Made by a program: the position numbers and the translations under genes. DNA of 21,281 nt from a virus: the IMG/VR virus record IMGVR_UViG_3300046000_005552, positions 1 through 21,281 of that record, one strand, 5' to 3'. The notes beneath the pieces were generated by a model that worked only from the letters and a program-made list of their open reading frames with translations, did not search any database and was not told the DNA's origin. Positions within the stretch are counted from its first letter, which is position 1. Each line of letters starts with the position of its first letter. Shown one piece after another: positions 1 through 21,079 of this stretch.

Positions 1-1285
1 CACTCCCGATAGATAAAGATGCGTTAAATAGCGTTAAACCACCTCCAGAGACAACCCCTTCAGCTATTGCACTCTTAACAGCATTAATTGCATCATCAAC
101 CCTATCAAGTTTCTCCTTTAACTCAACTTCTGTAATACTACCAACCTTAATAATTGATACTCCACAAGCAAGTTTAGATATCCTATCCTTTAGGTACTCC
201 TTCTCTGCTTTATTATTTGAGTTTTTAATTACCTTATTTAACTCATTAATCTTTGATTGTATCTTATCAGAATTAAATCTCTCATTAAAGAATAGGACAG
301 TATCCTCCTTAGTCGCAATTACCTTACTGCACTTACCTAGCAACTCCTCTGGGGAATATGCATCGAGGTTTGTCGATGTGTCTAAGTCAACAACTAAAGC
401 ATCTGTAGCTAACGCAATATCCGTTAAGTAGTCTCTCCTCTTCTCTCCAATTGATGGAGGTGTAATAACCGCAACCCTTAATCCATTCTTCTTATTTGAG
501 TATAGAACCTTCATTACCTCAAACTCCATTTCAGAAACAATAAATAGTTCTTGGTTATTCTTATGACAATGTTCTACAATTGGCAGAATCTCCCTAATGT
601 TTTGAAACTTACGGTTTGATAATAACAGTCTAGGTTCATTTGAAAACTCAATGCTCCTGTTTTCTGGTTTATTTATAAAACCCTCAAACTCCCAACCCCT
701 TGCAATTGGCATACCATCCACAAACTCTAAGTAGGTCTTAGATGTTTCTGATTGCTCATAAGACACAACACCATTCTTACCAGCCTTTACAAATGCCTGT
801 GCAATAATCTTTCCTAAGTCCTCGTCGTTATTAGAGGAAATCTTAGCAACGTCATAAATATAATCATTATCTACACTTACTGACTCAGACTTAATGTACT
901 CAATGGTATCCCTAACAGCCTCATCAATACCTTTCTTCACATCAATAGCAGAAACACCACTATTTAATGCCACCTCAGCTACCCTTAAGATTGCCTTTGT
1001 AAGTACTGCTGTACAGGTTGTTGAATCACCTGCCTCATTAACGGTCTTCCTACAAGCTTGCTTTACAAGTTCTGCCCCAAGACTCTCTGACGCATCCTCT
1101 AAGAAGATAGCCTCTGCAACTGATACTCCATCTTTAGTTACGATAGGTAATCCACCTGGACTCTCAATTAATACTGTTCTACCTCTATACCCCATAGTTG
1201 TAGCAACAGCATCACATACGATATTAATCCCCTTAATTAAGGGTTCTTTTGCTTCTTGGTTAAATTTAACTTCCTTAATGTTCAT
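1..1285 (-). CDS. groEL: GroEL-like chaperonin (Hsp60), 3' end outside window
   Basis: This gene reads leftward from ATG at 1285-1283 and stays open to the window edge, giving 428 codons of a family normally about 545 residues long. The protein aligns without large gaps to E. coli GroEL and keeps nearly the same numbering. The ATP-site residues are present: Thr30 and Gly32, the KDGVSVA motif with Asp52, GDSTT with Asp87 (GDGTT in GroEL), Asp398 in DRVDDA, and EGVVSGGG at 409-416. The apical domain contains GFINKP (202-207) and NIREILPI (229-236). Departures include Tyr33 for the usual Pro, Cys91 in GDSTTC, and PSIGEKRR where GroEL has PGFGDRR. The product should form a folding chamber in the host cytoplasm; a GroES-like gene lies at 12274. 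It has its own promoter, divergent from the virion operon. The identity is secure, but the C-terminal equatorial part and tail cannot be seen. Confidence 0.95.
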   Translation of the reverse strand, partial: MNIKEVKFNQEAKEPLIKGINIVCDAVATTMGYRGRTVLIESPGGLPIVTKDGVSVAEAIFLEDASESLGAELVKQACRKTVNEAGDSTTCTAVLTKAILRVAEVALNSGVSAIDVKKGIDEAVRDTIEYIKSESVSVDNDYIYDVAKISSNNDEDLGKIIAQAFVKAGKNGVVSYEQSETSKTYLEFVDGMPIARGWEFEGFINKPENRSIEFSNEPRLLLSNRKFQNIREILPIVEHCHKNNQELFIVSEMEFEVMKVLYSNKKNGLRVAVITPPSIGEKRRDYLTDIALATDALVVDLDTSTNLDAYSPEELLGKCSKVIATKEDTVLFFNERFNSDKIQSKINELNKVIKNSNNKAEKEYLKDRISKLACGVSIIKVGSITEVELKEKLDRVDDAINAVKSAIAEGVVSGGGLTLFNASLSIGS

Positions 1286-2649: not shown

Positions 2650-3390
2650 ATGGCAAGAATAAAGACATATAATAATGATACTTTGGTATCCTCTAATGAT
2701 AGGTGGATTGGTACTGATGGAGACAACTTCGATAGGACAAAAAACTTTTCTCCATTATCATTGGCTGGTTTTTTTAATTCTTCAGAGACAATTAATTCTG
2801 CAAATTCATTAACATTTACATATCAAACATTAGACCCATTAGAGCAAAGAGCTCTTGGTACTATATCATTTAAGAATAACCCTGCTCCTCAATTTAATTT
2901 TTCAAGCATTAACACCATAATGTTTAGTAGTAGAAGTAAGGGGCTTCATTATGTAGATATATTTTTACAAGATATGGTTGGGTATACAGTTATACTGCAT
3001 AGAGATAGGAGTATTAATGATTATGGTCTTTATCAGGTTGTATCTGTAGTGGAAGATGAAAGTGAGCCTGATTTCTTTAATGTAGGATTATTATTCTTAA
3101 AGGGTAATGGTTATTTACAGGAAGATAAAGATTATCTATTCTCGGTTATACAGACTAATTCTAGTGGTCAAGATTTATCTCAAAATAATTTTGTAAGGAA
3201 TTTATATATATACGAACTTGATTTAAGTGGTGATGGAACGATAGAGGAACAAATTTGTGAATACATCTTACTACTACCTGATGCAGAGAGGACTATTTTA
3301 GAAACTGATAGTAAGTGGAATGTTGTTATTGTTGACACACCGTTTATTGAAGGAATACACACAAGCATTTTTACAAACGTCTTTAACTAA
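2650..3390 (+). CDS. Tail or appendage protein with MARIK-type N-terminal module
   Basis: This 246-residue protein starts with a module of about 42 residues, MARIKTYNND...SSNDRWIGTDGDN...TKNF...LAGFF. It is clearly repeated at the N-terminus of the gene at 10830 (MARIKNY...DNDKVIGTDVDS...TKNY). Shared N-termini on otherwise different proteins are typical of phage fibres and appendages that dock to a common site on the particle; the docking role here is inferred. The rest is beta-rich with no recognised domain. It contains a run around residues 95-155 (FSSRSKGLHYVDIFL ... YTVILHRDRS) that looks like a compact globular unit. It precedes two further fibre-type genes. Confidence 0.65.
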   Translation: MARIKTYNNDTLVSSNDRWIGTDGDNFDRTKNFSPLSLAGFFNSSETINSANSLTFTYQTLDPLEQRALGTISFKNNPAPQFNFSSINTIMFSSRSKGLHYVDIFLQDMVGYTVILHRDRSINDYGLYQVVSVVEDESEPDFFNVGLLFLKGNGYLQEDKDYLFSVIQTNSSGQDLSQNNFVRNLYIYELDLSGDGTIEEQICEYILLLPDAERTILETDSKWNVVIVDTPFIEGIHTSIFTNVFN

Positions 3391-4028: not shown

Positions 4029-7000
4029 ATGGCTATTACAAAAATATTTGAAATTATTGATAAGGGCAGGGGTATAATTGAAGAATTAACCCCAGAAAAT
4101 CTATTGCTACTTAAAGAGGGTGGTGGTGGAGCACAAACGCTATCTGAAACCTTAGACAACGGGAATGTCACAGGAGGCTTTAATATACTTATAAATGATG
4201 CCGATGCAATTGAACTTGAAAATACTTCTTTGCTAAAAAAAGGTACTTATGATTATGGTGGGGATGGTGGTATTTCACGCATTTGCTCAGTAGGTTTTGA
4301 GGATATGTGGCAAAGTGGATTCAGACACGTTTTTGATAATAACGGACTTATAAGACATTCAACAAATTGCTTTGATGTTATTCCCGATGAAACTTTTGAC
4401 GATACATTAAGATTTAAAATTGATTCATTATGGACTTTAGATAACGGTACTACTTACAAATGTTTAGACGCAAGTACTGGAGCAGCGATTTGGGAGTTAT
4501 ATAACGTAGGAGGTATTCCAACGCTTCAAGAGGTTTTAGATAATAATCACGATTTAGTTGATGGCATATTTAATGCTGGGACACTTGCAGGAGATGGAAA
4601 TACAGGTTATAATCAAAACGCTTTAGGATATGAAGCTGGTTCTGATAATTCTGGTATTAACCAAAATGCTTTAGGAGAACGTGCTGGTGAAGTTAATACT
4701 GGTGATAATCAAAATGCTTTAGGGTGGTTTGCTGGTGCTAGTAACTCAGGTTATAATCAAAATACTTTAGGATATGAAAGTGGTGCTAGTAACTCAGGTG
4801 ATAATCAAAATGCTTTAGGATATTTTGCTGGTTTTTATAATACAGGAACAAATCAAAATGCTTTAGGTAATGCTGCTGGTCAAAACAATACAGGTAATAA
4901 TCAAAATGCTTTAGGTAATGCTGCTGGTGTAGATAACGCATTTAACAACGTAAACCTATTTGGAGAAAATGCACAAGCCGATGAAGATGGACAAACGGTA
5001 CTTTCAAAAGATGGTACAATTATGGCTCGTATCTCAACTGCTGATTTGACAGATACAAGGAAATATACTTTACCTGATGCGGATGGAACAATAGCTTTAA
5101 CAACCGACATTCCAACACTAACATCACAACTTACAAATGATGGAGAAGATGGTGTTAACCCATTTATATCCTTAGCTAATTTACCATATCAGATTGAAAT
5201 ATATGATGATTCAAGTTTGTTTCCTCTTGTTGGAAATGATGATATAGTATATCTTGCTGAAGATACGGGTATATTTTATTTATGGGATGGTACAGATTCA
5301 GTATACAATCAAATTACAAGCAATGCTTTCCCTACAGGTCTTGAAAAAATAACAGAAGGCAGTAATACAGGTTGGAGATTAATAGGTAGAAATCCTGCCA
5401 ACTATGGAAATATAGGTATGAATGCTGTTGATATTTCATCTAGTCTCACAGCTTCTTCAACAAGAGGTGCTCAGGGAGAATACTCTTTTGCACAAGGAAG
5501 GAATACTAGAGCAAGTGCAACAGCAGCAGTAGCTTTTGGTGACAATACTCAGGCAACCTCTCAATATGCTTTCGCACACGGAACTGACTCTCAAGCAACA
5601 AATAACTCAGCTGAAGCAGGTGGAAATAATACTGCTGCTTCAGGAAACTCTTCTGTTGCTAAAGGAACAGGAAATAGAGCAAGAAGTCTTGCAGAATTTT
5701 CAATTGGACAATGGGGAACAGACTACACTCCTGTAAGTGCTAGTAGTGCTACTAATACTACAGACAGAGTATTTAATCTTGGAAATGGATTAAGTGATGG
5801 TACAAGAAGTGATGCTTTTACTGTTTTTAAGAATGGAGCAGTAAAATTATTTGTTGGAGCTTTAGCAAGTATTACCAATGGAGTTGCTGGATTTTTTACA
5901 TTTAACTCTACAGATAGTAATAGACCTTATATTCATAATGGTACTGCTTGGAAAGGATTAGCATATAACGATGATATACCAACAAACACATCAGACTTAG
6001 TAAATGATGGAGAAGATGGTACATCTCCTTATGTAACTGCAGACCAACTACCTTCTAACCTTAATCTATACGCAACAAATGTTTCAAGTGATATAGCTAC
6101 ATATTTCAAGTTAGTAACTTCTATTGATGACCCTGATTATAATGATACTGCTGTAAATATACCAACAGGTGCAATTACAACAACAGGACAATTTATTGCT
6201 GCATTAGCAACAACTGCAAATGTATTAGTAGGTAATCCTGGAATTATAAATATATTAACAATAGGAAATGTAAGGAGAACATCAGGTACAGGTACAGCTG
6301 AGTTTTATTATGAAGTTTATCATAGAACTTCAGGAGGTACTGAAACACTAATTGCAACATCAAGTAATACACCTCCTGTAAATTCTGCTATTTATACTGA
6401 ATTTTTAGCTGCCGCTTTATTAAATAATGGCACATTCTTAGCAACTGACAGAATAGTTGTTAAGTATTATGCTGATAGAGTAGCAGGAGGAAGTAACCCT
6501 GAATATGACTTTCAGTTTGGTGGAACAAGTCCTGTAAGAACTAATTTTCCTATTCCTGCAACAAATATACCTTTAGATGCAACTCCGACTGATGGAAGTA
6601 CAAATGGTGTACAGAGCAATGGTGTGTTTGATGCTTTGGCTTTGAAAGCTAATAAAGAGAATAATTATTTTTTAAATTGGTTTCCAACAGGAAGTATAAT
6701 AACTATAAACAATTATACATCAACTGTTTCTAGTACAGCTTTTAGTTCAACCACTTCAAATTCAAATAATTTAACTAAACTTCAACCATTTGTAACAAAT
6801 AAAACTATTACAATTGATGAATTGTATTTGAGCTTGGCTACTGCAAATAACGGAACAGGTTCAACCGCTACATTATATATATTTGATGATTCAAATGATG
6901 GATTACCTGGAGTTAAACTGCATCAAGAAATAACAGCAACAGGTATATTTACAGCAGGAAACTCTATTATTTCATTTACAAATAACATCACATTACAACC

Positions 7001-7247
7001 TGGTGTTTATTGGATTGGTATCCATATCAGGGATTTGAATACAGCTGGTACAAATCCTACTTTTTATCACGCTTCTTTAGGAGGCAATACAAAAGGTTAT
7101 CAAACAGCTGCAATTTCATTTACAAATAACTACCTAGGTACATTGTTTGTTGGAGCTACAACAGGTGATTTAGGGAATAATCCAACTATATTAGTATCAG
7201 CTGGAACATCACTTTTATTACCAATGTTAAAAATTAAAATAGGATGA
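4029..7247 (+). CDS. Large tail fibre with two classes of short beta-roll-like repeats
   Basis: This 1072-residue protein is the largest in the window. Residues 195-306 are seven perfect-length 16-residue repeats with consensus NQNALGxxAGxxNTGx. Residues about 485-560 hold a second, unrelated set (FAQGRNTRAS, AFGDNTQATS, FAHGTDSQAT, ...) resembling the head repeats of YadA-like trimeric adhesins. A linker with PTxTSxLxNDGEDG occurs twice, near residues 360 and 649. Around residue 865 is DATPTDGSTNGVQSNGVFDA, familiar from phage fibres, followed by a beta-sandwich-like C-terminal domain of about 190 residues, which may be glycan-binding. It is most likely a trimeric host-recognition fibre. Its stop overlaps the next start by 4 nt (ATGA). 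Confidence 0.85.
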   Translation: MAITKIFEIIDKGRGIIEELTPENLLLLKEGGGGAQTLSETLDNGNVTGGFNILINDADAIELENTSLLKKGTYDYGGDGGISRICSVGFEDMWQSGFRHVFDNNGLIRHSTNCFDVIPDETFDDTLRFKIDSLWTLDNGTTYKCLDASTGAAIWELYNVGGIPTLQEVLDNNHDLVDGIFNAGTLAGDGNTGYNQNALGYEAGSDNSGINQNALGERAGEVNTGDNQNALGWFAGASNSGYNQNTLGYESGASNSGDNQNALGYFAGFYNTGTNQNALGNAAGQNNTGNNQNALGNAAGVDNAFNNVNLFGENAQADEDGQTVLSKDGTIMARISTADLTDTRKYTLPDADGTIALTTDIPTLTSQLTNDGEDGVNPFISLANLPYQIEIYDDSSLFPLVGNDDIVYLAEDTGIFYLWDGTDSVYNQITSNAFPTGLEKITEGSNTGWRLIGRNPANYGNIGMNAVDISSSLTASSTRGAQGEYSFAQGRNTRASATAAVAFGDNTQATSQYAFAHGTDSQATNNSAEAGGNNTAASGNSSVAKGTGNRARSLAEFSIGQWGTDYTPVSASSATNTTDRVFNLGNGLSDGTRSDAFTVFKNGAVKLFVGALASITNGVAGFFTFNSTDSNRPYIHNGTAWKGLAYNDDIPTNTSDLVNDGEDGTSPYVTADQLPSNLNLYATNVSSDIATYFKLVTSIDDPDYNDTAVNIPTGAITTTGQFIAALATTANVLVGNPGIINILTIGNVRRTSGTGTAEFYYEVYHRTSGGTETLIATSSNTPPVNSAIYTEFLAAALLNNGTFLATDRIVVKYYADRVAGGSNPEYDFQFGGTSPVRTNFPIPATNIPLDATPTDGSTNGVQSNGVFDALALKANKENNYFLNWFPTGSIITINNYTSTVSSTAFSSTTSNSNNLTKLQPFVTNKTITIDELYLSLATANNGTGSTATLYIFDDSNDGLPGVKLHQEITATGIFTAGNSIISFTNNITLQPGVYWIGIHIRDLNTAGTNPTFYHASLGGNTKGYQTAAISFTNNYLGTLFVGATTGDLGNNPTILVSAGTSLLLPMLKIKIG
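4611..4946 (+). repeat. Seven tandem 48-bp coding repeats
   Basis: Seven consecutive 48-bp units encode the 16-residue repeats NQNALGxxAGxx(N)(T/S)G of the large fibre. An eighth, degenerate partial unit (NVNLFGENA) follows. Units vary at the residue pair after LG and at the loop residues, while the Asn-Gln-Asn-Ala-Leu-Gly core is almost fixed. Unit 4 has Thr for Ala and Ser for Ala. Confidence 0.95.
5481..5708 (+). repeat. YadA-head-like coding repeats in the fibre
   Basis: Imperfect units of roughly 14 residues with the pattern A-x-G-x-x-T-x-A-[ST] recur about five times (FAQGRNTRAS, AFGDNTQATS, FAHGTDSQAT, EAGGNNTAAS, VAKGTGNRAR). They end in FSIGQW. The spacing and the Gly/Ala/Thr rhythm resemble the left-handed beta-roll of YadA-type adhesin heads. 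The structural match is inferred from pattern only. Confidence 0.7.
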
Positions 7248-7676: not shown

Positions 7677-8024
7677 ATGGGAATCCTTTTATATTTTGTA
7701 GCTATAATTTTGTACTTACCACTTACCATTATAAACACTATTTTGGTTTTAAACAAGTATGGTTGGAAATTCAAAACTATTGATGACTATTTTTTTCAAA
7801 CAGCAGTTGATATTGACAAGTTTGCAAATAGAAACTTTAGGACTTTATGGAATCAAACATTGCAAAAGAATGGCTATCAGTTCGGAGATGAAAGGGAAAC
7901 GGTTTCAAGTGCTTTAGGTAAAAATAAAAGAGATAACACACTAACACAAACGGGTAAAATACTTTGTGATTTATTAGATAGACTAGATGAAAATCATTGT
8001 ATAAAATCAATTAAAGAATTATGA
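7677..8024 (+). CDS. Small membrane protein with conserved soluble tail (lysis block)
   Basis: I choose ATG at 7677, one base after the preceding stop codon, giving 115 residues. An in-frame ATG at 7632 would overlap the upstream gene by 44 nt and add 15 residues before the hydrophobic segment. Residues about 3-25 form a strong transmembrane helix (ILLYFVAIILYLPLTIINTI). The soluble part contains ANRNFRTLWNQTLQKNGYQF, then ETVSSALGKNKRDNTLTQTG and KILCDLLDRLDENHC. I associate this pattern with small proteins near lysis genes in Bacteroidota phages, though no function is known to me. Its stop overlaps the next gene by 4 nt (ATGA). A helper of lysis or a host-envelope-modifying protein is possible. 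Confidence 0.65.
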   Translation: MGILLYFVAIILYLPLTIINTILVLNKYGWKFKTIDDYFFQTAVDIDKFANRNFRTLWNQTLQKNGYQFGDERETVSSALGKNKRDNTLTQTGKILCDLLDRLDENHCIKSIKEL

Positions 8025-9607
8025 AGAATTTAATCTATACAATAATCTTGTTAGTTACAAACTTGTTACTTGCTCAAACAGTTAGTTATAATGAAAGTGC
8101 ATCTATTATAGCTAACCCTGAAAGAGGATTGCAGAAATATTCATCCACATCTTCTGATGGTGTTGTTAGCTTATTGCCAACATTTACTTATAATCAGTTA
8201 AACCAAACCACCCTAACAGGTTGGAGAACAGGAGCAGATAAAATAACTGTTGTATATAGATACTTTATTCTACCATCTGTAGACTTAAATACAACATATC
8301 TAACCAATATGCAGACTGATTTTAATAGAATCCGTAATGCAGGGATAAAGACCATTATAAGATTTGCATATACAAATGATTGTAATACAGGATGTGATAC
8401 AGGAACAAATCCACAACAACCTACAAAGGCACAAGTATTAGCACACATCTCTCAATTATCTAATGTAATAAATACCAATAAAGATATAATATTATCAATT
8501 CAATGTGGATTTATTGGTACTTGGGGAGAATGGTATTATACAGGGTCTGCTGAATTTGGACATAAAGGAACTGTTAGTGTTACACAATGGCAGAATAGAA
8601 AGCAAGTAGTTGATTCAATGTTGTCTAATTTTCATATAGACATTCCTTTACAGGTTAGATATGCTAATGCTAAAAGACAGATGTATGGTAGTGCAATACC
8701 AACTAATTTTGGTCAAGATAGGGTGGGATTTTATAATGATGCTTTTTTAAATTCCTATGGAGATATGGGAACATATAATGTTTCAAGTAAACTTACTAAT
8801 CCAGTAGGAACTTCTGATTATAATTTTATATCCAATACATCAAAGTATTTACCTATGACAGGAGAAACTAATGGATTAAATGCTCCAAGAACTGATGTGG
8901 TAAATGCAATTAATGAAATGAACCAATTGAACTTTTCAGTTTTAAATAGAGACTATTTTACACAAAATTGGAATAATTGGATATCTTCAGGAAAATATAA
9001 TGAAATTGTAAAGAATCTTGGATATAGACTTGTGTTAGTAAGTAGTACTCTTTCAGGGAATGAATTATCATTACAAGTTGTGAATAATGGTTATTCAAAA
9101 GTGCTGTTTAATAAAAACACTTATTTAGTTTTAAGAAGTGTTAATGGAGATATAAAGAGATTAATAGGTATTGATATTAGAACCTTGAATAAAGGATTAA
9201 ACAATGTATCAGTAACAATCCCTTCTGACATACCTAATGGTAGTTATTCTATACTATTACATATTGCAGATAAAAACTTAGAAAACAAACCTGAATATTC
9301 AATACAATTTGCAAATAATAATATATTTGAAACAACAACTGGTTATAATAACTTAAACCAAACGTATATAAAGGGGACACCAACAGATATTTTTCAGTCA
9401 GTGGTTATTTTCCCAAATCCTTTTATAAATCAAATTAATATAAGTGGTATTACAGGATATACAGTTAAGGTGAGAAATTCAAGAAATAGAAATGTTGCCT
9501 TCACATTAGTAAATAATGTAGTTACATTAAACGTAAATAGAGGAACTTACTATTTAACTATAACAAAAAATGGTCTATCAAGAACATACACTATAATCAA
9601 AAATTAA
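8021..9607 (+). CDS. Secreted DUF4874/DUF4832 protein with T9SS sorting domain
   Basis: This 528-residue protein starts with a typical Sec signal peptide (MKNLIYTIILLVTNLLLAQ). The DUF4874 region follows: NPERGLQKY (32-40), VVYRYFIL, IKTIIRFAYTND, and the signature GFIGTWGEWYY (163-173) with Glu170. The DUF4832-type region includes RVGFYNDAFL, a GETNG segment and LNRDYF, and runs to about residue 440. The last 70 residues form a type A T9SS sorting domain: IFPNPFINQINI (463-474) and GTYYLTITKNG near the end. Such proteins are exported through Sec and then T9SS to the cell surface or medium of Bacteroidota. The barrel-like core and conserved acidic residues suggest a glycan-active enzyme, which is unproven. 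The start overlaps the preceding stop (ATGA), tying it to the phage operon. A host-derived acquisition is likely. Confidence 0.85.
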   Translation: MKNLIYTIILLVTNLLLAQTVSYNESASIIANPERGLQKYSSTSSDGVVSLLPTFTYNQLNQTTLTGWRTGADKITVVYRYFILPSVDLNTTYLTNMQTDFNRIRNAGIKTIIRFAYTNDCNTGCDTGTNPQQPTKAQVLAHISQLSNVINTNKDIILSIQCGFIGTWGEWYYTGSAEFGHKGTVSVTQWQNRKQVVDSMLSNFHIDIPLQVRYANAKRQMYGSAIPTNFGQDRVGFYNDAFLNSYGDMGTYNVSSKLTNPVGTSDYNFISNTSKYLPMTGETNGLNAPRTDVVNAINEMNQLNFSVLNRDYFTQNWNNWISSGKYNEIVKNLGYRLVLVSSTLSGNELSLQVVNNGYSKVLFNKNTYLVLRSVNGDIKRLIGIDIRTLNKGLNNVSVTIPSDIPNGSYSILLHIADKNLENKPEYSIQFANNNIFETTTGYNNLNQTYIKGTPTDIFQSVVIFPNPFINQINISGITGYTVKVRNSRNRNVAFTLVNNVVTLNVNRGTYYLTITKNGLSRTYTIIKN

Positions 9608-10829: not shown

Positions 10830-11660
10830 ATGGCAAGAATTAAAAATTATGTTGTAGATGGTATATTGTCTGATAATGATAAGGTTATTGGAACTGACGT
10901 AGATTCTCTTAATCAAACAAAGAATTATAAATTATCAGATATAAGAAGTTATGTAGTTTCTGGCTTATCTCCAGAAATTGGCGGTACTTTCAAGATTTCA
11001 GAAGTAGTTTACGAGGGAGAATTGGAGACACCTGAAGAAGTAGCTAATGAGTTAGACCCAAGTTACATTGTTTCTGCTTATGAGAATTTGTTTTTTAATG
11101 TTAATGGGGATTTATATTTGTTAAATAAAACGGATATAAACATTGGTGTTTCACAAACCGCATTAACAAGTGCTGATTTTATTGAATTTCCGACAAGCGT
11201 AGGACCAACAGGTGCAACTGGAAATGGTATTTCATCAATCTCTTTATTATCAACTGTAGGTCTTGTAAAAACATATAGAATAATTTATACAAATTCAGCA
11301 TTCTTTGATTTTGCAGTAACAGATGGAACAAATGGAACAAATGGAACAAATTATACAGCAAATAATTTACAAAGAACAGTTACTGCATCAACCACTATTT
11401 TAGAAACGGATAATAATTCTACAATTATAATTAATAACGGAGCTACAGCTATAAATATTACAGTACCAACAGGTCTTAGTTCTAAGTTTGCGATAGGATT
11501 TATTCAGCAAGGAACAGCAGATGTTACTTTTGTACCATCAGGAACAACCATTAATTCCCCATTAGATTATTTAAAAATTAAAGGAGAAAATTATTGGGCT
11601 TACTTGGAAAAAGTAGGTACGTCAGAGGTATTTCAATTAGCTGGAGAAATAAAAGAATAG
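10830..11660 (+). CDS. Appendage protein with MARIK-type N-terminal module and collagen-like linker
   Basis: The 276-residue product begins with the same N-terminal module as the gene at 2650 (MARIK, NDxxIGTDxD and TKN blocks at equivalent positions). A small globular part follows (residues about 50-125). Next is a collagen-like stretch GPTGATGNG (about 127-135), a beta-rich unit ending in a DGTNGTNGTN loop, and a C-terminal beta domain (RTVTASTTILETDNNSTIII ... ENYWAYLEK). That last domain resembles beta-helical or trimeric fibre ends that contain Ile-Asn-Asn-Gly turns. It is probably a virion appendage that docks at the same type of site as the 2650 product. Placement after the amidase means that fibre-type genes flank the lysis block on both sides. 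Confidence 0.7.
   Translation: MARIKNYVVDGILSDNDKVIGTDVDSLNQTKNYKLSDIRSYVVSGLSPEIGGTFKISEVVYEGELETPEEVANELDPSYIVSAYENLFFNVNGDLYLLNKTDINIGVSQTALTSADFIEFPTSVGPTGATGNGISSISLLSTVGLVKTYRIIYTNSAFFDFAVTDGTNGTNGTNYTANNLQRTVTASTTILETDNNSTIIINNGATAINITVPTGLSSKFAIGFIQQGTADVTFVPSGTTINSPLDYLKIKGENYWAYLEKVGTSEVFQLAGEIKE
11325..11351 (+). repeat. Three tandem 9-bp repeats (GGAACAAAT)
   Basis: Three exact copies of GGAACAAAT encode Gly-Thr-Asn x3 in a loop of the appendage protein. Exact identity in DNA suggests recent slippage expansion and possible length variation between relatives. Confidence 0.9.
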
Positions 11661-11664
11661 TAAT

Positions 11665-11955
11665 ATGTTACAGATAAAAAAAAGAGGATTAAGTAGTAGG
11701 TTGAATATTTTTACATACGCTAATTTTGGTTTTGCTGAAACTGGTACTGCGTGTGGGATATCTCCTTCTTTATACCTTTATAGAAATTCTATTGGTCAAA
11801 ATTTTGTTGCTGCAACACTTCTTGCTGAAGATGAAGACTTCACTATTTTAGCAGATGCTGGTTATTATTCTGAATTTGACATTACACAAGGAGAAATAGT
11901 AAGTAGGTATTGGAGCGGAACTGCATTTGTAGGAGACCCTGACCTTTGTGGATAA
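11665..11955 (+). CDS. Small probable virion protein at operon end
   Basis: This 96-residue beta-rich protein starts 4 nt after the appendage gene. It shows TGTACGISPSLYLYRNSIGQ and a C-terminal segment ADAGYYSEFDITQGEIVSRYW followed by SGTAFVGDPDLCG. The final YW-S-G-x-x-F ... C pattern recalls short proteins found behind fibre genes in Bacteroidota phages and prophages. There is no signal peptide or membrane segment. The two cysteines (one near residue 30, one near the C-terminus) could pair if the protein is exposed on the particle. I cannot name a specific family. It is the last gene before the inverted repeat and promoter at 11964-12019. Confidence 0.6.
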   Translation: MLQIKKRGLSSRLNIFTYANFGFAETGTACGISPSLYLYRNSIGQNFVAATLLAEDEDFTILADAGYYSEFDITQGEIVSRYWSGTAFVGDPDLCG

Positions 11956-11963
11956 AAAATAAA

Positions 11964-11998
11964 TTATATTATGATGAAATGATTACATTATAATATAA
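11964..11998 (+). repeat. 13-bp inverted repeat upstream of packaging promoter
   Basis: The arms TTATATTATGATG (11964-11976) and CATTATAATATAA (11986-11998) are complementary over 13 positions with one G-U pair, around a 9-nt loop. No U-tract follows directly, so it is a poor intrinsic terminator. It covers the place where the -33 element of the 12011 promoter would lie, so it may be an operator. It could also be an RNA hairpin at the end of the upstream transcript. Confidence 0.6.
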
Positions 11999-12010
11999 AC
12001 ATATTTTACT

Positions 12011-12019
12011 TAACTTTGC
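12011..12019 (+). promoter_or_regulatory. Promoter -7 box for the packaging operon
   Basis: The sequence TAACTTTGC matches the Bacteroidota -7 element and lies 27 nt before the ATG at 12047. The leader is A/T-rich without a Shine-Dalgarno sequence. No TTTG -33 element is visible; the inverted repeat at 11964-11998 occupies that region. Confidence 0.6.
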
Positions 12020-12046
12020 CCTTTAAATTAAATCTAATTAAAAAAA

Positions 12047-12271
12047 ATGAATATAATAAGAAAAATAACAATTAAGATAGATAAAGATAATATAATGCAC
12101 TATCAGGTAGGCAGTAAGGTGCTTGGTGGTAGCAAAATTATCTCTAATATAATAAAGGAAGATAAGTTCTTTGATATATACGTAAAGGAAATAGATAGCC
12201 ATATAGTATTAATATGGAAGTCTTTTGGACACGAATCAGTACAGCACATAGAGTACGAAACTGAATTATAG
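12047..12271 (+). CDS. Small hypothetical protein before the GroES-like gene
   Basis: The 74-residue product is the first gene of the packaging operon and sits 2 nt before the GroES-like gene. The sequence includes MHYQVGSKVLGGSKIISNII and ends with VLIWKSFGHES followed by HIEYETEL. I recall similar short proteins with a HY-x-V-G-x-x-V start and a V-L-W-K-x-F end in other phage genomes, without a known function. It is predicted to be a small alpha/beta or beta-barrel protein with no membrane segment. Tight coupling to the co-chaperonin and terminase suggests an assembly or packaging role, but this is context only. Confidence 0.6.
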   Translation: MNIIRKITIKIDKDNIMHYQVGSKVLGGSKIISNIIKEDKFFDIYVKEIDSHIVLIWKSFGHESVQHIEYETEL

Positions 12272-12273
12272 TT

Positions 12274-12819
12274 ATGAAGAGTCCTCATTACTTTATAGTC
12301 AAACCTATTGACTCTGAAAGATATTGTAATAAATCTTCAAGTGGATTGATTATTAATGCATCTCTTGAGGACCACTCATATACTCAAAGGTTAGCTACTG
12401 TAGTATCTACGCCAATAGGGTATGAAGGCGATGTAGAGGAGGGAGACACAATTGTTGTGCATCATAATACATTTAGGGTGCAGTATAATAATCAAGGCGT
12501 TCCATTAGAGAGTAAGTACCACATTGAGGATGACTTATTTTATGTTGAAGTACCATTGGCATATATGGTTATTAAGAGTGACAACTCAAAAATAGCACTG
12601 CCACCTTATTGTTTTGTAGAACAAGCATACGTTAATGACAAGTGGGAGGGGTTAATTCAAGAGAAACAGTATGGTTTCTTAAGGTATAAAAATAAAGATA
12701 TGACTGAGTTTAATGTATCTGATAAAGTAGGTATGAAGGAAGACTCTGAATATGAATTTAATATCTTTGATGAGAAGCTATATATGATGAATCAAAACAG
12801 ATTATTATTTACCGTATGA
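12274..12819 (+). CDS. GroES-like co-chaperonin with extra C-terminal half
   Basis: Residues 1-103 follow the GroES (Cpn10) beta-barrel. A first strand (HYFIVKPID) leads to a mobile-loop segment CNKSSSGLIINAS, in which Leu25-Ile26-Ile27 takes the place of the GroES Ile-Val-Leu that grips GroEL. A strand RLATVVSTPIG follows, then the turn GDVEEGDTIVVHHNTFRV (GroES: VKVGDIVIF), an enlarged loop at about 70-82, and the closing strand LFYVEVPLAYMVI (GroES: VLIMSESDILAIV). Residues 107-181 are extra; their end (KVGMKEDSEYEFNIF ... KLYMMNQNRLLFTV) looks like a degenerate copy of the GroES second half. GroES is about 97 residues. It should cap a GroEL-type ring, perhaps the one encoded at 1-1285. 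It overlaps the terminase start by 4 nt. The fold call rests on pattern matching. Confidence 0.78.
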   Translation: MKSPHYFIVKPIDSERYCNKSSSGLIINASLEDHSYTQRLATVVSTPIGYEGDVEEGDTIVVHHNTFRVQYNNQGVPLESKYHIEDDLFYVEVPLAYMVIKSDNSKIALPPYCFVEQAYVNDKWEGLIQEKQYGFLRYKNKDMTEFNVSDKVGMKEDSEYEFNIFDEKLYMMNQNRLLFTV

Positions 12820-15443
12820 AGGGATTAAGTAAAGACATAGAGATAGCTGTAGATACTGTAATTGAAGGATTGGAGTATGAAACTGATATGTCCTTAATAG
12901 ACCCTGATAAGGTGAAGACCATTGTTAAGGCAAAGGTTGATTCATTTAAGTATGGTAAAGATTTAATTGTAAGGTGGCAAAATAGTAATAACGCTCCATC
13001 TGATGATGTTTTAAAGAAATATGTTAGAAGATTAGTCAAGGCTGGAGATGTTGCCTTAAAAGTCCTTAGAAACGCTTTAAGGAGTAAGATAGACTACAAT
13101 GAACTAGACCCATCTAAACATCACTTAGCAATATCTGTAAAACCATCCATTCACCAGGCTATTGTAGAAATAGATTCTTCATTAATTGAATTAAGATTAC
13201 AATTAGATGCTGACAATATAAACCTAAAGGAGAATGAATTTAAGAGGGGTTATCCTGAAAAATTTGCCTCTGGAGAGTTTCTCCCAACTAAAGATTACTA
13301 CAAGGAATGGTATGATAGTCAGAACGACGCTATTGTATTAGACCCAAGAGGAACTAAGGGGGAAATAATTAATGTTGGCGATATAAATATAATACTTCCA
13401 AAAGTACCCGATAAAAAAGAAATACTATTCTCTAAGTTAAAGAAAGAGGAACAGTATTGGAGAAGACAAGATGTGCCAAGTGGATTATCTCAAGATACAG
13501 CCGAATCTTACACAGAATATATAATAGAGGAGTTTAAGAGGAGGAGAGAAGGTGTTTGGTTTATGAATAATGGAAGCCCTGAGTATTTAACAGGTACGCA
13601 TTACTTTGCCTTACAATGGGTTAAGATGGAGGATTCAGGTTCTTATATGGACTTTAGACACGCACAGAGAGATATGTTTTACTTTACACAAGCTTGTATA
13701 GTTGATAAGAGATGTCTTGGCGAGTTGTTTGTTAAGTCAAGGAGAACAGGATATACCTATCAGATTATATGTCAGTTGCTAAATGATGCAACTTCTTGTT
13801 CTAATGCAAGATTAGGTATAACATCTAAATCTAATGATGATGCCGAGAAGGCTTTCTCTAAGCTTGTTTATGGCTTCCTTAATTTACCATTCTTCTTTAA
13901 ACCAGTTGTAAAGGGTGTTGAGGACTCTAAGAAAAAGATTGAATTTGCAAAACCATCTGATAGGACTAAAGCAAGTAAAAAAAGAAATGATACAAACACA
14001 GATGATTACTTGAATACACTTGTAGATTATTTACCTACAAAGAATGACTCTTATGATGGTCAAAAGATGTTTAGGTATTTAGGTGATGAGGCTTCAAAAT
14101 GGGCAAAGCCATCTAACTTTGAAAAGCATTGGGGTCAAATATCCCCTACCTTTGATACAGGTGGTAATATTGTTGGTAAGGCGTTTATAGGCTCTACCGT
14201 TGCAGCGATGAGGGATGGTGGAAAAGAGTACAAGGAATTGTACAAGCTATCGTTAATTAAGAAAAGAAATAAGGTTACAGAGAGAACACCATCAGGATTA
14301 TATTCTTACTTCCTACCAGCACACAAGAATATGGAGGAGTTCACAGATAAGTATGGTGTTTGCCACGAGATAGTTGAAAAAAGTGGTGGCTTTGAGAATA
14401 TTCAAGGGACTTGGAAGAAGATAGGTTCTGTGCAGTTCTTAGAGGCAAGAAGAATTAGTAAGAAGAAGGAAAGTGATATATCCTACAACGAGGAGTTAAG
14501 AGCTTTCCCTATGACAATAGATGAGGCATTTAGAGATGAGTTACTTCAATCTACTTTAAATATAGAGAAGATATTATCTCAGGTAAAGATAAATGAGGAG
14601 CACGAGATAGAACGTACTTTGGTTAAGGGTAACTTTCAATGGAGGGATGGTATTATTGATTCTGTTGTAGAGTGGCATCCTAATGAGAGGGGTAGATTCC
14701 TAATCTCTTGGATACCGCCAGAAGATATGAGGAACAAATGGGAGTGGAAGTCTTTATATGGTATAGAGAGTAAGTTCCCGATGAATGAGGATATAGGTGC
14801 TTTTGGATGCGATACATACGATATATCTTCTACTGTAGAGGGTGTTAGAAAGGATGGCTCTTATGACGAGAATACAAACAAGGCATCAAAGGGAGCATTA
14901 CACGGTTTAACGGGTTTCTCCTTATCTGAAATACCAAATAACACATTTTTCCTTGAGTATATAGCAAGACCAAAAACAGCAGAGATGTTCTTTGAAGATG
15001 TACTTATGGCTTGTGTGTTTTATTCAATGCCTATATTAGCAGAGAATAACAAACCAAGACTTTTATATCACTTTAAGAATAGGGGCTATAGAGGTTTCTC
15101 TATAACAAGGTTTGACAAGGTAGAGAATAGGTTATCCCCAACAGAGAAAGAATTGGGAGGGATGCCAAACTCATCAGAGGATGTTAGACAAATGCACGGA
15201 GCTGCGTTAGAGAGTTATATAGAGAAATACGTTGGTGTAGATGATAATGGAGAAGTATCAAGGAATATGCCCTTTATAGACACATTAAATGATTGGATGA
15301 ATTTTGATATAACCAATAGAACAAAATATGATGCCTCTATTAGTTCTGGATTAGCAATTATGGCAGTAAATAGAAGAATGTATGTTCCATCTTTTAGAGA
15401 AAAGAAAGATATTATCATAAACTTAAAGACATATAATAATTAA
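12816..15443 (+). CDS. terL: Terminase large subunit (TerL)
   Basis: This 875-residue protein is the DNA-packaging motor with ATPase and nuclease parts. An N-terminal region of about 200 residues precedes the ATPase domain. The Walker A segment is the deviant form KSRRTGYT (307-314), with the lysine at the front as in lambda gpA (KSARVGYS). Walker B is FRYLGDEASKW with Asp424-Glu425. The RNase H-like nuclease carries Asp666 in GCDTYD, a central acidic stretch near AEMFFEDVL, and Asp839 in YDASISSGLAIMA. It is longer than most TerL proteins (450-700), mainly through the N-terminal extension. It overlaps the GroES-like gene (ATGA) and ends 2 nt before the portal gene. No separate small-terminase gene is recognised nearby. 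Confidence 0.88.
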   Translation: MKGLSKDIEIAVDTVIEGLEYETDMSLIDPDKVKTIVKAKVDSFKYGKDLIVRWQNSNNAPSDDVLKKYVRRLVKAGDVALKVLRNALRSKIDYNELDPSKHHLAISVKPSIHQAIVEIDSSLIELRLQLDADNINLKENEFKRGYPEKFASGEFLPTKDYYKEWYDSQNDAIVLDPRGTKGEIINVGDINIILPKVPDKKEILFSKLKKEEQYWRRQDVPSGLSQDTAESYTEYIIEEFKRRREGVWFMNNGSPEYLTGTHYFALQWVKMEDSGSYMDFRHAQRDMFYFTQACIVDKRCLGELFVKSRRTGYTYQIICQLLNDATSCSNARLGITSKSNDDAEKAFSKLVYGFLNLPFFFKPVVKGVEDSKKKIEFAKPSDRTKASKKRNDTNTDDYLNTLVDYLPTKNDSYDGQKMFRYLGDEASKWAKPSNFEKHWGQISPTFDTGGNIVGKAFIGSTVAAMRDGGKEYKELYKLSLIKKRNKVTERTPSGLYSYFLPAHKNMEEFTDKYGVCHEIVEKSGGFENIQGTWKKIGSVQFLEARRISKKKESDISYNEELRAFPMTIDEAFRDELLQSTLNIEKILSQVKINEEHEIERTLVKGNFQWRDGIIDSVVEWHPNERGRFLISWIPPEDMRNKWEWKSLYGIESKFPMNEDIGAFGCDTYDISSTVEGVRKDGSYDENTNKASKGALHGLTGFSLSEIPNNTFFLEYIARPKTAEMFFEDVLMACVFYSMPILAENNKPRLLYHFKNRGYRGFSITRFDKVENRLSPTEKELGGMPNSSEDVRQMHGAALESYIEKYVGVDDNGEVSRNMPFIDTLNDWMNFDITNRTKYDASISSGLAIMAVNRRMYVPSFREKKDIIINLKTYNN

Positions 15444-15445
15444 TT

Positions 15446-17881
15446 ATGAAGAAAAAAACAGGAGTTTCAATAACCTACAGAAGTTTTCCAAGTCAAAATG
15501 TTGAATTTGAGGTTCAAAAAACAACAGACTTTGGGTTACAAGTGGCTGAAGCAATACAATACGAATGGTTTTCAAGGAACGGACAATCTTGTAGATACTT
15601 TGAGCAGAGAGATGAGTTTCATAATAGAAGAATGTATGCCAATGGTATACAGAGCTTAAAGAGATACAAGGAGAAGTTTGCTATTAATGGAGATATGTCT
15701 TATTTAAACCTTGATTGGAAAATAATTCCAGTAATACCAAAGTATGTAGATATCCTATCTAATGGTATGTCTCAAAGAGAATTTAACGTAAAGGCAATAG
15801 CGGTTGACCCAACATCTATAAAACAAAAGGCAGATAAGAAGAGAGCTATAGAGAGGGATATGATTGGGAAAGATATGGCTATTAAGATTAAGCAAGACTT
15901 AGGTATTGACGTTACATCTGTCCCACTTGATAAGATACCAGAGAGCAAGGAAGAATTAGATATTCAAATGGAGTTAGAGTACAAGCCACCAATTGAGATG
16001 GCTGAAGAAATAGCTATTGAGTATGTACTAAAGGAAAACAATTATGATGAGGTCTTAAGGAAGAAAATAGAGAGGGATATTGTAGAGGTAGGTATTGGTG
16101 CTGCCAAACATAGGTTTATACCTGGAGAAGGAATTAAAATAGAGCACGTTAACCCTGCAAACCTAATATGGTCATACACAGAAGACCCTTACTTTCAGGA
16201 TTGTTTCTACTTTGGTGAATACAGAAACACCAACTTATCAGAGGTTTACAAAGAGAATGCTTGGTTAGATGTAAATCAAAAAGAGATACTTCAAGGTATA
16301 TCAAGCTCGTGGAATAACTATTATGAGTTAAATTATGATAGTCAAAACACAGACGTATTAGATGGTAAGATTGGGCTACTATACTTTAACTACAAGACAG
16401 CAAGAGAAAAGATTTGGAAGAAAAAGAAAAAGACCAAAGGTGGTATAAAGGTAATTGAGAAGAGCCAAGACTTTGTATTCAAGGGAACTGGCGATGCTGA
16501 TTTTGAGAAACTAACTAAGATAGAGGAAGTTTGGTTTGAGGGGATATTGGTATTAGGGACTAACATACTACTTAAATGGGAGTTAAATAAAAATATGGTT
16601 AAGAAGAACTCTAATTTAAACAAGGTACTCCCTAATTATATTGTTGCAGCACCAAAGTTATACAAGGGTTATATAGACTCAACCGTGTCAAGGATGATAC
16701 CATTTGCAGATGACATTCAGATGTCTTGGTTAAAGTTACAACAGATAAAACAAAGGGTTGTGCCTGATGGTCAATACATAGATGTAGATGGTATTGTAGG
16801 TATTAACTTAGGTAACGGTAATAAATACACAATCGAGGATGCTTTAAATATGTACTTCCAAACGGGTACTGTTATTGGTAGGAGTCAAAATGTAGGCGGA
16901 GAATTTAACAATGCAAAAGTACCTATCCAAGAAATTAGACATTCATCTGGACAAGATAAGATTTCCTCACTATGGAACTCAATTCAAATATCAATGGATA
17001 TGATTGCCTCTGTAACAGGAATTAATCAAGCTATTGATGCAAGTAATCCAGACAAGAATAGCTTAGTTGGTATTCAAAAAATGGCAGCTTATAGTTCTAA
17101 TGTAGCCACAAGACACATCTTAGAGGCAAGTATGTTTATAACAAGAGAGTTGGCTAAGTGTATTGCTGTTAGAATTTCTGATGTCCTTGAATTTTCTGAG
17201 ATGAGGGATGAGCTTATAAATAAGATTTCATCATCTAACGTAGACGTATTGAGAAATATGAAAGACTCTTACCTTAGTGACTTTGCAATTAATATAGAAT
17301 TAATACCAGACGAAGAGGAAAGAGCTAAATTAGAGGCTGATATTTCATTAGAGATACAACAAGGTAATCTTGGCATTGAAGATAAGTATGCAATACTTGG
17401 CATTAAGAATATAAAGCTTGCATCTAAGTACCTCTCTGTTAAGAAAGAGAAGAGAATGAAGCAACGCCAAGAGCAAAAAATGCAAGAGATACAAGCTCAG
17501 ACTCAATCAAATATACAATCGGCACAAGCATCTTCTGAATCTAAGGCTCAGTTAATTCAATTAGAGGGACAATCTAAATCAATGGTTGAACAAGCAAGGG
17601 TTCAAGGCGAGATAGAGAAAATGAAGATGGAGGTTGAGATGAAGCTTATGTTAATGCAAAAGGAATTTGAATACCAAATGCAATTGAAGGGTATTGAGGT
17701 TGAGGGTATGAAGAGCAAGGAAAATATGAAGGAGGATAGAAAAGATGAGAGAACAAAGTTACAAGCCACACAACAGTCAAAGATGATAGAGCAACGTAAA
17801 AAAGATTTACCTGCAATGACATTTGAATCGAATGAAGATAGTTTAGATGGGTTCTCCCTTTCAGAATTTGAACCACGATAA
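15446..17881 (+). CDS. Portal protein
   Basis: The 811-residue product has the portal layout. An N-terminal wing region (about 1-240) includes YFEQRDEFHNRRMYANGIQS and a DWKIIPVIPKYVDIL stretch. A core follows with VEVGIGAAKHRF and VNPANLIWSYTEDPYFQDC. The clip/stem/crown region holds MDMIASVTGINQAIDASNPD (about 514-533) and the long helix KNSLVGIQKMAAYSSNVATR. The C-terminus (about 670-785) is a Gln/Glu/Lys-rich coiled coil with many EQ/KM heptads, as in the barrel of large portals. It should form the dodecameric ring at the capsid vertex through which TerL pumps DNA. Position right after TerL and before scaffold and capsid genes supports this. It is large compared with typical 450-600-residue portals. 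Confidence 0.85.
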   Translation: MKKKTGVSITYRSFPSQNVEFEVQKTTDFGLQVAEAIQYEWFSRNGQSCRYFEQRDEFHNRRMYANGIQSLKRYKEKFAINGDMSYLNLDWKIIPVIPKYVDILSNGMSQREFNVKAIAVDPTSIKQKADKKRAIERDMIGKDMAIKIKQDLGIDVTSVPLDKIPESKEELDIQMELEYKPPIEMAEEIAIEYVLKENNYDEVLRKKIERDIVEVGIGAAKHRFIPGEGIKIEHVNPANLIWSYTEDPYFQDCFYFGEYRNTNLSEVYKENAWLDVNQKEILQGISSSWNNYYELNYDSQNTDVLDGKIGLLYFNYKTAREKIWKKKKKTKGGIKVIEKSQDFVFKGTGDADFEKLTKIEEVWFEGILVLGTNILLKWELNKNMVKKNSNLNKVLPNYIVAAPKLYKGYIDSTVSRMIPFADDIQMSWLKLQQIKQRVVPDGQYIDVDGIVGINLGNGNKYTIEDALNMYFQTGTVIGRSQNVGGEFNNAKVPIQEIRHSSGQDKISSLWNSIQISMDMIASVTGINQAIDASNPDKNSLVGIQKMAAYSSNVATRHILEASMFITRELAKCIAVRISDVLEFSEMRDELINKISSSNVDVLRNMKDSYLSDFAINIELIPDEEERAKLEADISLEIQQGNLGIEDKYAILGIKNIKLASKYLSVKKEKRMKQRQEQKMQEIQAQTQSNIQSAQASSESKAQLIQLEGQSKSMVEQARVQGEIEKMKMEVEMKLMLMQKEFEYQMQLKGIEVEGMKSKENMKEDRKDERTKLQATQQSKMIEQRKKDLPAMTFESNEDSLDGFSLSEFEPR

Positions 17882-18954: not shown

Positions 18955-20301
18955 ATGGCATTATTGACAACTCCAGGAGTACAATTAACTCCTACTGCTA
19001 CCAAAGAGATTTTGGCTAGCAATTACTTAGAAGCATCTGATTTTGACTTTACAAATCAGTATTTACCAGAATTGTACGAGAAAGAATTTGCTCGTTACGG
19101 TAATCAATCCTTAAAGGGATTTTTAGAGCGTTTTGGACAGGAAATCCCAATTCAATCTGACTTAATTAAATGGTCTGAAGAAGGTCGTTTACGCCCAGTT
19201 GGCACAGGAATTTCTCGTTCATCTAACGTGTTTACATTGGTTGCTCATCCTTTCCGTAAGAATGACACTGTAATTATCGTTGGTACTACAGGTACTGAGA
19301 AAAAAGGTATTGTTTCTGCTGTTACAGCTGACACATTTACAGTTCTTCCTGTTGAGGCTGCTGGATGGCCTGCATCTAACTTCGCTGCTGACCTTAAAGC
19401 ATTTACTTACTCTAATGAGTACAGAAAAGGAACTACAGGTAGAGAAGAGTCTTTAGAGGCACAACCAGACATCTTTGAGAACAAACCAATCATCATCAAA
19501 GAATTAGATGAGGTTAATGGTTCTGATATGACTCAAGTTGGTTGGATTGAAGTTGAAGGAGATAATGGTGCAGGTTACTTATGGTACTTGAAATCAAGAG
19601 CACAATCTCGTCAAAGATTTGATGACTATATCGAGATGGGTATGGTAGAGGGTGTTTCTTATGAGTCTGGCTCAGGTGCTGCAACTGCTGGATTTACAGG
19701 TACAGAAGGTTTCTTCGAGGCTATTGAGCAAGGGAATATCTTCTCAGGTGTAATTACATCTTTAGCTGATGTTGATGAGATTTTAGCTCGTTTGAATCGT
19801 CAAGGTGCTATCTCTGAGTACATTATGTTGAATGACTTTGAGCAAGACAGAGCTTTAGATTATCTATTGGCTTCTCAAAACTCTTACGGTGTTGGTGGTA
19901 CTTCTTATGGTGCTTTCAATAACAGTGAGGATATGGCTGTAAACTTAGGCTTTACAGGATTTAAAGTTGCTGGTTTTGAAATCTACAAATCTCAATGGAA
20001 ATATTTAGATGACCCAACTGCAAGAGGTTTATTCGAAGGAAACCAAGCTATCAACGGTGTTATGTGTCCTTCTGGAACAAAGACTGTTCGTGATGAGGTT
20101 TTAGGTGCTAACGCTACATTACCTTTCTTACACGTTAAATATCGTAAATCTGCTTCGGAAGATAGACGTTATAAAGTATGGATGACAGGTTCTGCTGGTG
20201 GTGCTAGTAACTCTAGTTTAGATGCTAATCAAATGCATATGTTAACTGAGAGAGCATTATGTACAATGGGTAGAAACAATTTCGTCTTAATTCGCGGTTA
20301 A
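18955..20301 (+). CDS. Major capsid protein
   Basis: The 448-residue protein is the likely HK97-fold shell subunit. The N-terminal arm-like segment (MALLTTPGVQLTPTATKEIL) is followed by the helical FTNQYLPELYEKEFARYGNQ. The C-terminal half holds a run INGVMCPSGTKTVRDEVLG, LPFLHVKYRKSASEDRRYKV and TERALCTMGRNNFVLIRG, a pattern I recognise from capsid proteins of Bacteroidota and uncultivated marine phages. Arginine codon use differs sharply from its neighbours: 13 of 22 are CGT/CGC, while TerL and portal use almost only AGA/AGG, consistent with very high expression. It follows the scaffold gene by 22 nt and is followed directly by a strong terminator, as expected for the most expressed gene. 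Confidence 0.85.
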   Translation: MALLTTPGVQLTPTATKEILASNYLEASDFDFTNQYLPELYEKEFARYGNQSLKGFLERFGQEIPIQSDLIKWSEEGRLRPVGTGISRSSNVFTLVAHPFRKNDTVIIVGTTGTEKKGIVSAVTADTFTVLPVEAAGWPASNFAADLKAFTYSNEYRKGTTGREESLEAQPDIFENKPIIIKELDEVNGSDMTQVGWIEVEGDNGAGYLWYLKSRAQSRQRFDDYIEMGMVEGVSYESGSGAATAGFTGTEGFFEAIEQGNIFSGVITSLADVDEILARLNRQGAISEYIMLNDFEQDRALDYLLASQNSYGVGGTSYGAFNNSEDMAVNLGFTGFKVAGFEIYKSQWKYLDDPTARGLFEGNQAINGVMCPSGTKTVRDEVLGANATLPFLHVKYRKSASEDRRYKVWMTGSAGGASNSSLDANQMHMLTERALCTMGRNNFVLIRG

Positions 20302-20332: not shown

Positions 20333-20361
20333 AAAGAGAGGCTAAACACCTCTCTTTTTTT
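20333..20361 (+). terminator. Intrinsic terminator after the capsid gene
   Basis: A perfect 9-bp stem AAAGAGAGG (20333-20341) / CCTCTCTTT (20349-20357) with a 7-nt loop runs straight into a T-tract ending at 20361. It lies about 30 nt after the capsid stop and touches the end of the converging HNH gene. The minus-strand side has a weaker T-rich tail, so partial bidirectional action is possible. Confidence 0.85.
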
Positions 20362-21079
20362 ATTTAATACTACTTCCTTTTTTTAAATTATCCTGCCACC
20401 ACAAAGGCTGTATATTTGTATAGTGACAAAGACCTTCTAATTCTTCTTTATTTTTTGCACTACATAATGGTATTATATGGTCTAAATGCCATCCCTTTAA
20501 TCCTCTATTTTCCCAAGTCATACCTTCAGTAAATTTAGACTCTAAATATTCTTTAAATTTCTGAGGAGTACATCCTATTAAATCAGAAGTTTTTGTAGGT
20601 TTTTCAAAACCTTTTAATTTGAACGCTGTTTTTGTTCTTGTCCTATATACTTTTATTAATCTATATAGTTCATCTTCTTTGCTTCTTTTTTTTTCGTAAT
20701 TATTATTAATTTTACTTATGCTTTCTTTATTGTTTTTATAATACTCTTTATTTTTAACAGATAGCTTTTCTTTATTTTCAACCCAATATTTTTTATTTCT
20801 TTCTATACATTCTTCTCTTTTAAAATCCCATCTATCTCTATTGTATTTTTCTTGCTTATCTTTATTATCTATTCTCCATTCTTTTAAGTATTGGTTTATT
20901 TCATCTCTTTTTTCTACTCTTCTTTTCATACTTCTTTCTTTTTGTATTTCAGGATTAGCTCGATAAGACTCTTTTCTTTTAGCTTTACTACAATCCTTGC
21001 ATTCAGCTCTTCCAGAATAAAATAATTCTATATTTTTTTCTTCAGAACACTTAGTACATTTTTTTTTAATTTCATTCAT
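20360..21079 (-). CDS. HNH endonuclease with N-terminal zinc finger, free-standing homing type
   Basis: The 239-residue product has an N-terminal zinc-ribbon pattern (Cys8-x2-Cys11 ... Cys27-x2-Cys30). A long, highly basic, Lys/Glu/Asn-rich helical region follows (about 35-140). The C-terminal HNH motif includes WHLDHIIPL (Asp200-His201), TNIQPLWW (Asn222) and the closing Asn231-Lys233. Such enzymes nick or cut DNA at specific sites; free-standing copies between phage virion genes usually spread as homing elements. It lies on the strand opposite to the capsid region, with its own promoter box, between the capsid gene and the next virion gene. It reads as an insertion in the structural operon. 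A packaging-linked HNH nuclease is an alternative, less likely given the reversed direction. Confidence 0.88.
   Translation of the reverse strand: MNEIKKKCTKCSEEKNIELFYSGRAECKDCSKAKRKESYRANPEIQKERSMKRRVEKRDEINQYLKEWRIDNKDKQEKYNRDRWDFKREECIERNKKYWVENKEKLSVKNKEYYKNNKESISKINNNYEKKRSKEDELYRLIKVYRTRTKTAFKLKGFEKPTKTSDLIGCTPQKFKEYLESKFTEGMTWENRGLKGWHLDHIIPLCSAKNKEELEGLCHYTNIQPLWWQDNLKKGSSIK

Follow-up and report, generated by a model that had tools for sequence, protein, structure and literature searches.

A tandem two-domain co-chaperonin encoded beside the terminase of GroEL-carrying phages, and a possible three-part phage chaperonin

The phage DNA analyzed here (the window, all 21,281 bases of IMG/VR record IMGVR_UViG_3300046000_005552) encodes a GroEL and, in its head operon, a 181-residue protein in which two GroES-fold domains lie head to tail directly upstream of the terminase large subunit (TerL). 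The less expected element is this tandem co-chaperonin, which is found in a large phage family and is accompanied by a single-domain GroES and a GroEL wherever contigs cover those genes. We propose, at a probability of roughly 0.4, that the three proteins form a three-part chaperonin in which the tandem protein caps the phage GroEL and contributes to a mixed seven-domain lid for the folding of head proteins. The tandem gene and its parts are as follows.

12274..12819 (+): tandem co-chaperonin of 181 aa, a head-to-tail pair of GroES-fold domains (PHROG, Pfam in homologues, model and structure matches)
12274..12579 (+): N-terminal GroES-fold domain, residues 1-102 (PHROG 3188 GroES on residues 6-64; structural matches)
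12346..12354 (+): hydrophobic triplet Leu25-Ile-Ile, residues 25-27 of the N-domain loop, aligned with the Ile-Val-Leu of the GroES mobile loop
12586..12816 (+): C-terminal GroES-fold domain, residues 105-181 (GroES Z 9-10, hhalign 95%, Pfam Cpn10 in homologues, strands 112-122 and 126-138)

Profile comparisons identified the 12274 product as a co-chaperonin over its whole length (PHROG 13932, co-chaperonin GroES), with unequal signal in its two halves. The C half aligned to a GroES profile in hhalign with 95% probability and E 2e-8, and the N half did so weakly (E 0.003). Pfam Cpn10 gave no match to the window protein at E values up to 1, and in homologues it matched the C half, over the cut-off in Calle_1 and weakly in others. 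The two halves showed no significant similarity to each other in hhalign, which thus gave no evidence of a recent internal duplication. Searches of PDB sequences by phmmer returned nothing meaningful, and a profile search returned weak GroES matches only; neither returned 7ekq_R or 7ekq_Q, the chloroplast chains to which the structural comparison led.

An AlphaFold2 model built with 24 relatives reached pLDDT 86 and pTM 0.81, and its best solved full-chain match, over 157 aligned residues, was 7ekq_R (Foldseek 8.5e-5, Z 10.6), a chain entered in the PDB as 'Cpn20 co-chaperonin subunit'. When the N domain was modeled alone (pLDDT 78.5), its 15 best structural matches were all co-chaperonins, at Z 5.1-7.1, followed by the related alcohol-dehydrogenase fold at Z 4.6, so the evidence for a GroES fold in this domain is good, not overwhelming. 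The phage T4 co-chaperonin gp31 (1g31) was also among the structural matches, with Z 7.6 for the C part and 6.6 for the N domain, and the best match bearing a name in the public set of predicted viral structures was, again over the whole length, a 200-residue 'Chaperonin cpn10' of Cellulophaga phage phi18:3. By the model, then, the 12274 product is not a single-domain GroES, which would have one domain of about 10 kDa, and we regard the tandem anatomy as well supported.

The two domains differ in their loops. The N-domain loop that bears the Leu-Ile-Ile triplet is a low-confidence, flexible segment of the model, and at least two hydrophobic residues occupy the triplet in 74/78 family members, with polar residues entering in some (for example FIT and FYT). 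In the C domain, the long strands are joined by a short turn, and this domain of the window protein therefore appears to have no mobile loop. Conservation is strongest outside the mobile loop, in the motifs SPHYF, EDH, VHHNxF and SEYxF, whose residues are not the GroEL-contact residues of GroES and may serve another partner. Such a pattern is what one would expect if the tandem protein were a GroES-fold assembly factor for the head or terminase that no longer touches a chaperonin, a reading that also draws on the fixed position of the gene directly upstream of TerL, the C domain without a long loop and the polar triplets. We judge it unlikely, as the hydrophobic triplet persists in nearly all members and the gene is strictly associated with groEL and groES.

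The GroEL half of the proposal lies at the other end of the window, where the contig breaks.

1 (no strand): contig end; in relatives groEL runs on to a 3' end that is overlapped by a single-domain groES of 83-85 aa (16/16 loci; annotation of elemoA_7-9A)
2..1285 (-): groEL, first 428 residues; ATG-initiated, uninterrupted frame running off the contig (Pfam, PHROG and PDB sequence matches)

Pfam PF00118 (Cpn60_TCP1) matched residues 25-424 with E 9.9e-37 and 127 bits against a cut-off of 34.3, spanning apical, intermediate and equatorial parts. The PHROG groEL profile matched at E 9.2e-103, and E. coli GroEL in the PDB matched residues 3-423 at E about 1e-87. On these similarities the protein is classed as a group I chaperonin. 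Because the virus record consists of the window's bases only, D495, the C-terminus and the last part of the gene are unreadable; about 90-100 codons of the 3' end would lie beyond the contig end, and the groEL genes of relatives are intact at 518-552 aa.

To check the residues, the window protein was aligned with GroEL of E. coli, with those of 44 phage loci and with 80 cellular sequences; its clade has 11 members. The ATP-site residues T30, D52, D87 and D398 (E. coli numbering) are kept, in agreement with the original prediction, and D495 is present in 10/10 full-length clade members. The substitutions that the prediction had listed are likewise real, and most are fixed: P33Y, Y203G and the change of PGFGDRR to PSIGEKR occur in 11/11 clade members, as does V263Y, which was absent from that list, and 79-80 of the 80 cellular GroELs are canonical at these sites. 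G88S (4/11) and T91C (7/11) are variable, and V264S is confined to the window, the other 10 members having Ala. The window protein also carries Trp at Y199. This pattern indicates that the substrate and GroES face has diverged and the ATP site has not; the ring is predicted to be active.

Divergence in the clade affects not only the apical face but also the contacts between rings, at positions E461, S463 and V464, and the relatives' proteins lack the C-terminal GGM tail. One could read these changes as the marks of a mainly lidless holdase, possibly single-ringed, after the manner of phage EL gp146, which does not use E. coli GroES (PMC7185714). That the window GroEL works in this way strikes us as improbable, given an adjacent GroES with a canonical-looking mobile loop in relatives and a second lid protein, a combination unlike what is known of phage EL.

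Searching phage records with the window GroEL by tblastn matched 255 records, the best being 68 Flavobacterium phage 'elemo' records at 77% identity, annotated as chaperonin GroEL; Immutovirus, Vibrio phages, crAss-like phages, AR9 and EL were much more distant. Closer still were the IMG/VR contigs L001 and L002, at 87% identity. A phylogeny with phage and Bacteroidota GroELs, as the original prediction had proposed, placed the window sequence in an eight-member phage clade (SH-aLRT 100) that lies apart from the cellular GroEL clade (98), whereas the GroEL of Bacteroides phage DAC20 and that of a Vibrio phage fell within the latter; several phage rows among the 60 sequences of this tree are long branches and its deeper joins are unsure. 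Horizontal capture from the present host was considered and set aside, the window sequence lying outside Bacteroidota GroEL in this tree with its long phage branches. The tree and the tblastn relatives therefore describe an old phage lineage that is already annotated in isolates. The prediction had pointed to GroEL from large phages such as EL, OBP and AR9; the phage affiliation stands, but those phages are not near kin, and the actual kin are small Flavobacterium podoviruses of about 60 kb with annotated GroEL. Phage-encoded GroEL is not new, and the window protein is an ordinary example with annotated relatives.

The relatives also show what follows groEL. In 16/16 of those read, an ORF of 83-85 aa that either overlaps or abuts the end of the full gene encodes a single-domain GroES, with GroES-like mobile loops reading GIIL, GLYL or GLLL. 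The annotation of elemoA_7-9A records an 83-aa co-chaperonin GroES that overlaps groEL by one base and, additionally, a separate 'chaperonin cpn10' just upstream of the terminase. Because of this synteny we infer that the groES of the window phage lies just past base 1.

These observations correct which GroES belongs to the window GroEL. The original prediction was right that a GroES-like gene lies about 11 kb from groEL, on what proved to be the opposite strand, and it paired the two as a two-part folding system because the 12274 gene was the only GroES-like gene visible in the window. That pairing does not hold up: with both genes in the window and a PHROG name of co-chaperonin GroES for the 12274 product, a simple two-part system was a natural reading, yet it is very improbable in view of the separate single-domain GroES adjoining groEL in every relative read and the two domains of the 12274 product. 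For the same reasons the 12274 product was rejected as the sole GroES partner.

The genes around the tandem gene belong to the packaging and head module.

12047..12271 (+): conserved 74-aa protein encoded immediately before the tandem gene, with a counterpart in most loci
12816..15443 (+): TerL (PHROG 6681, E 6e-152); its ATG overlaps the tandem gene's stop (ATGA)
15446..17881 (+): portal protein (PHROG 6547, E 1.7e-130)
18955..20301 (+): virion structural protein of the head-and-packaging family PHROG 13704 (E 1.8e-106), probably the major capsid protein

This arrangement is conserved, with TerL downstream of the tandem gene in 19/19 loci tested and a protein of about 74 aa upstream in 74/80 loci by a simple motif test. 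The tandem family is large, as more than 590 IMG/VR stretches match the protein. Among the contigs and records of at least 46 kb that carry the tandem gene, 20/22 hold it together with GroEL and the single GroES, and G034 is a further record with all three. The two exceptions, G013 and G023, have their contig ends on either side of the region where their relatives G015 and G024 carry groEL, and are not evidence of groEL absence because that segment is missing at the contig ends. The tandem gene was not found in the other GroEL phages searched (immuto, DAC20, Vibrio 2.275, Vibrio K452 and the crAss-like cr108 and cr111), so it is dispensable for phage GroEL in general. Its profile also gave no match in two sets of 4 and 296 Bacteroidota genomes (one genome common to both). 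There is no genome to serve as a positive control for this search, but among virus records the profile reaches matches of E 1e-35 or better.

Co-occurrence bears on the possibility that the tandem protein is a stand-alone co-chaperonin, acting alone or with host GroEL in the way of T4 gp31, with the phage GroEL using only its single GroES. Precedents for such a lid are available: gp31, a structural match to both domains as described above, takes over the role of host GroES according to PMC6318259, and Cpn20 by itself can be functional (PMC5780408). A factor for host GroEL only would be expected also in phages without groEL, and the tandem gene is found only alongside phage GroEL and GroES wherever the contig covers the region. 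We rate this possibility as low, on a par with that of a head or terminase assembly factor, and retain the three-part chaperonin as our tentative reading.

Several other features of these loci are recorded here. An endonuclease VII/HNH-like gene (20360-21079, minus strand, PHROG 1035), possibly a homing endonuclease, follows the probable capsid gene, and in contig L044 the TerL match is split by about 840 bases (about 11737-12581), as if an intron or intein had been inserted. The 528-aa product of 8021-9607 (+) matches DUF4832 (E 1e-41) and DUF4874 (E 8e-33) and no PHROG; its N-terminus resembles a signal peptide, and it matches a secretion tail very weakly; a secreted host-type protein amid fibre and lysis genes is unusual. 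The gene at 4029-7247 (+) encodes a fibre-like protein of 1072 aa in which NQNALGxxAG motifs recur and which matches YadA_head weakly. The products of 2650-3390 and 10830-11660 (both +) share an N-terminal module, MARIKxY..D.xLSxND+.IGTD.D...TKN, as if both used one docking site on the particle.

In the three-part chaperonin that we propose, GroEL would supply the ring subunit, the single-domain GroES would be translated from the end of groEL, and the tandem two-domain lid would be produced from the terminase/head operon. Late in infection, the tandem protein would cap the phage GroEL, with the hydrophobic mobile loop in the N domain making the contact. Three tandem chains and one single GroES could share a seven-domain lid, and this mixed lid would alter the folding chamber for late head proteins, the 18955..20301 product being a possible client. 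That the chaperonin may be tuned to virion proteins, as the original prediction supposed, is plausible. The triplet in 74/78 members, the 20/22 co-occurrence and the single GroES in 16/16 relatives speak for the three-part reading; against it count the location of the tandem gene about 11 kb from groEL/groES and on the other strand, the conserved motifs outside the GroEL-contact residues, the apparent lack of a C-domain mobile loop and the GroEL phages without a tandem gene.

The mixed lid is suggested by chloroplasts together with the phage's own gene complement of one single and one tandem co-chaperonin. The distinct chains of 7ekq, an entry for a ClpP complex and not for a chaperonin, are one Cpn11, one Cpn23 and two Cpn20, which add up to 1+2+4 = 7 domains from one single and three double chains. 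Chloroplast Cpn10 and Cpn20 are reported to form mixed rings (PMC5780408, citing Tsai 2012), and six- and eight-domain rings are likewise described as functional there. A more specific version of the proposal is that Bacteroidota phages evolved, independently of plastids, a mixed lid of three tandem chains and one single GroES chain in which only part of the lid domains carry a GroEL-binding loop, yielding a phage-specific asymmetric chamber turned on together with the head genes. We regard this version as doubtful, though worth stating. The phage family would provide an independent and experimentally handier system for studying tandem lids, and it raises the questions of why lid domains are fused and how lid proteins with an even number of domains fit onto a ring of seven-fold symmetry.

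Among known phages, the elemo phages (MT497017 and 67 further records) are the closest comparison, sharing the place and strand of their GroEL relative to the head genes as well as its 77% identity, and encoding downstream, before TerL, a cpn10 that is 70% identical to the tandem protein. The window differs from them as a separate lineage, 87% identical to L001 and L002 in GroEL, and in that its contig breaks off ahead of the groEL 3' end and groES. Cellulophaga phages phi38:1, phi18:3 and Calle and Maribacter phage Panino also have a long cpn10 before TerL, and a search found GroEL and a single GroES in Calle_1/2 and Panino; their tandem protein is about 30% identical or less, and their records call it plain cpn10/GroES. 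Phage EL gp146 resembles the window protein in being a diverged, phage-encoded GroEL but is very distant, its tblastn match covering one third of the window protein, and no cognate GroES is known for it. T4 gp31 is likewise a phage lid protein of GroES fold, but a single-domain one (107 residues in 1g31) that uses host GroEL. A limited literature search found no published phage tandem co-chaperonin.

Tandem two-domain co-chaperonins have been described for chloroplasts and the apicoplast (PMC5780408). Chloroplast Cpn20 and Cpn23 (7ekq chains R and Q) share with the phage protein the head-to-tail pair of GroES-fold domains and the company of a single-domain co-chaperonin (Cpn11 there, GroES in the phages) and a group I chaperonin. 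The phage tandem protein differs from Cpn20 in its lack of a sequence match, in a C-domain short turn in place of the mobile loop and in its terminase operon. We describe it as Cpn20-like by architecture and have not filed it as a Cpn20 member because no sequence kinship was found; it is probably a fusion that arose independently of Cpn20.
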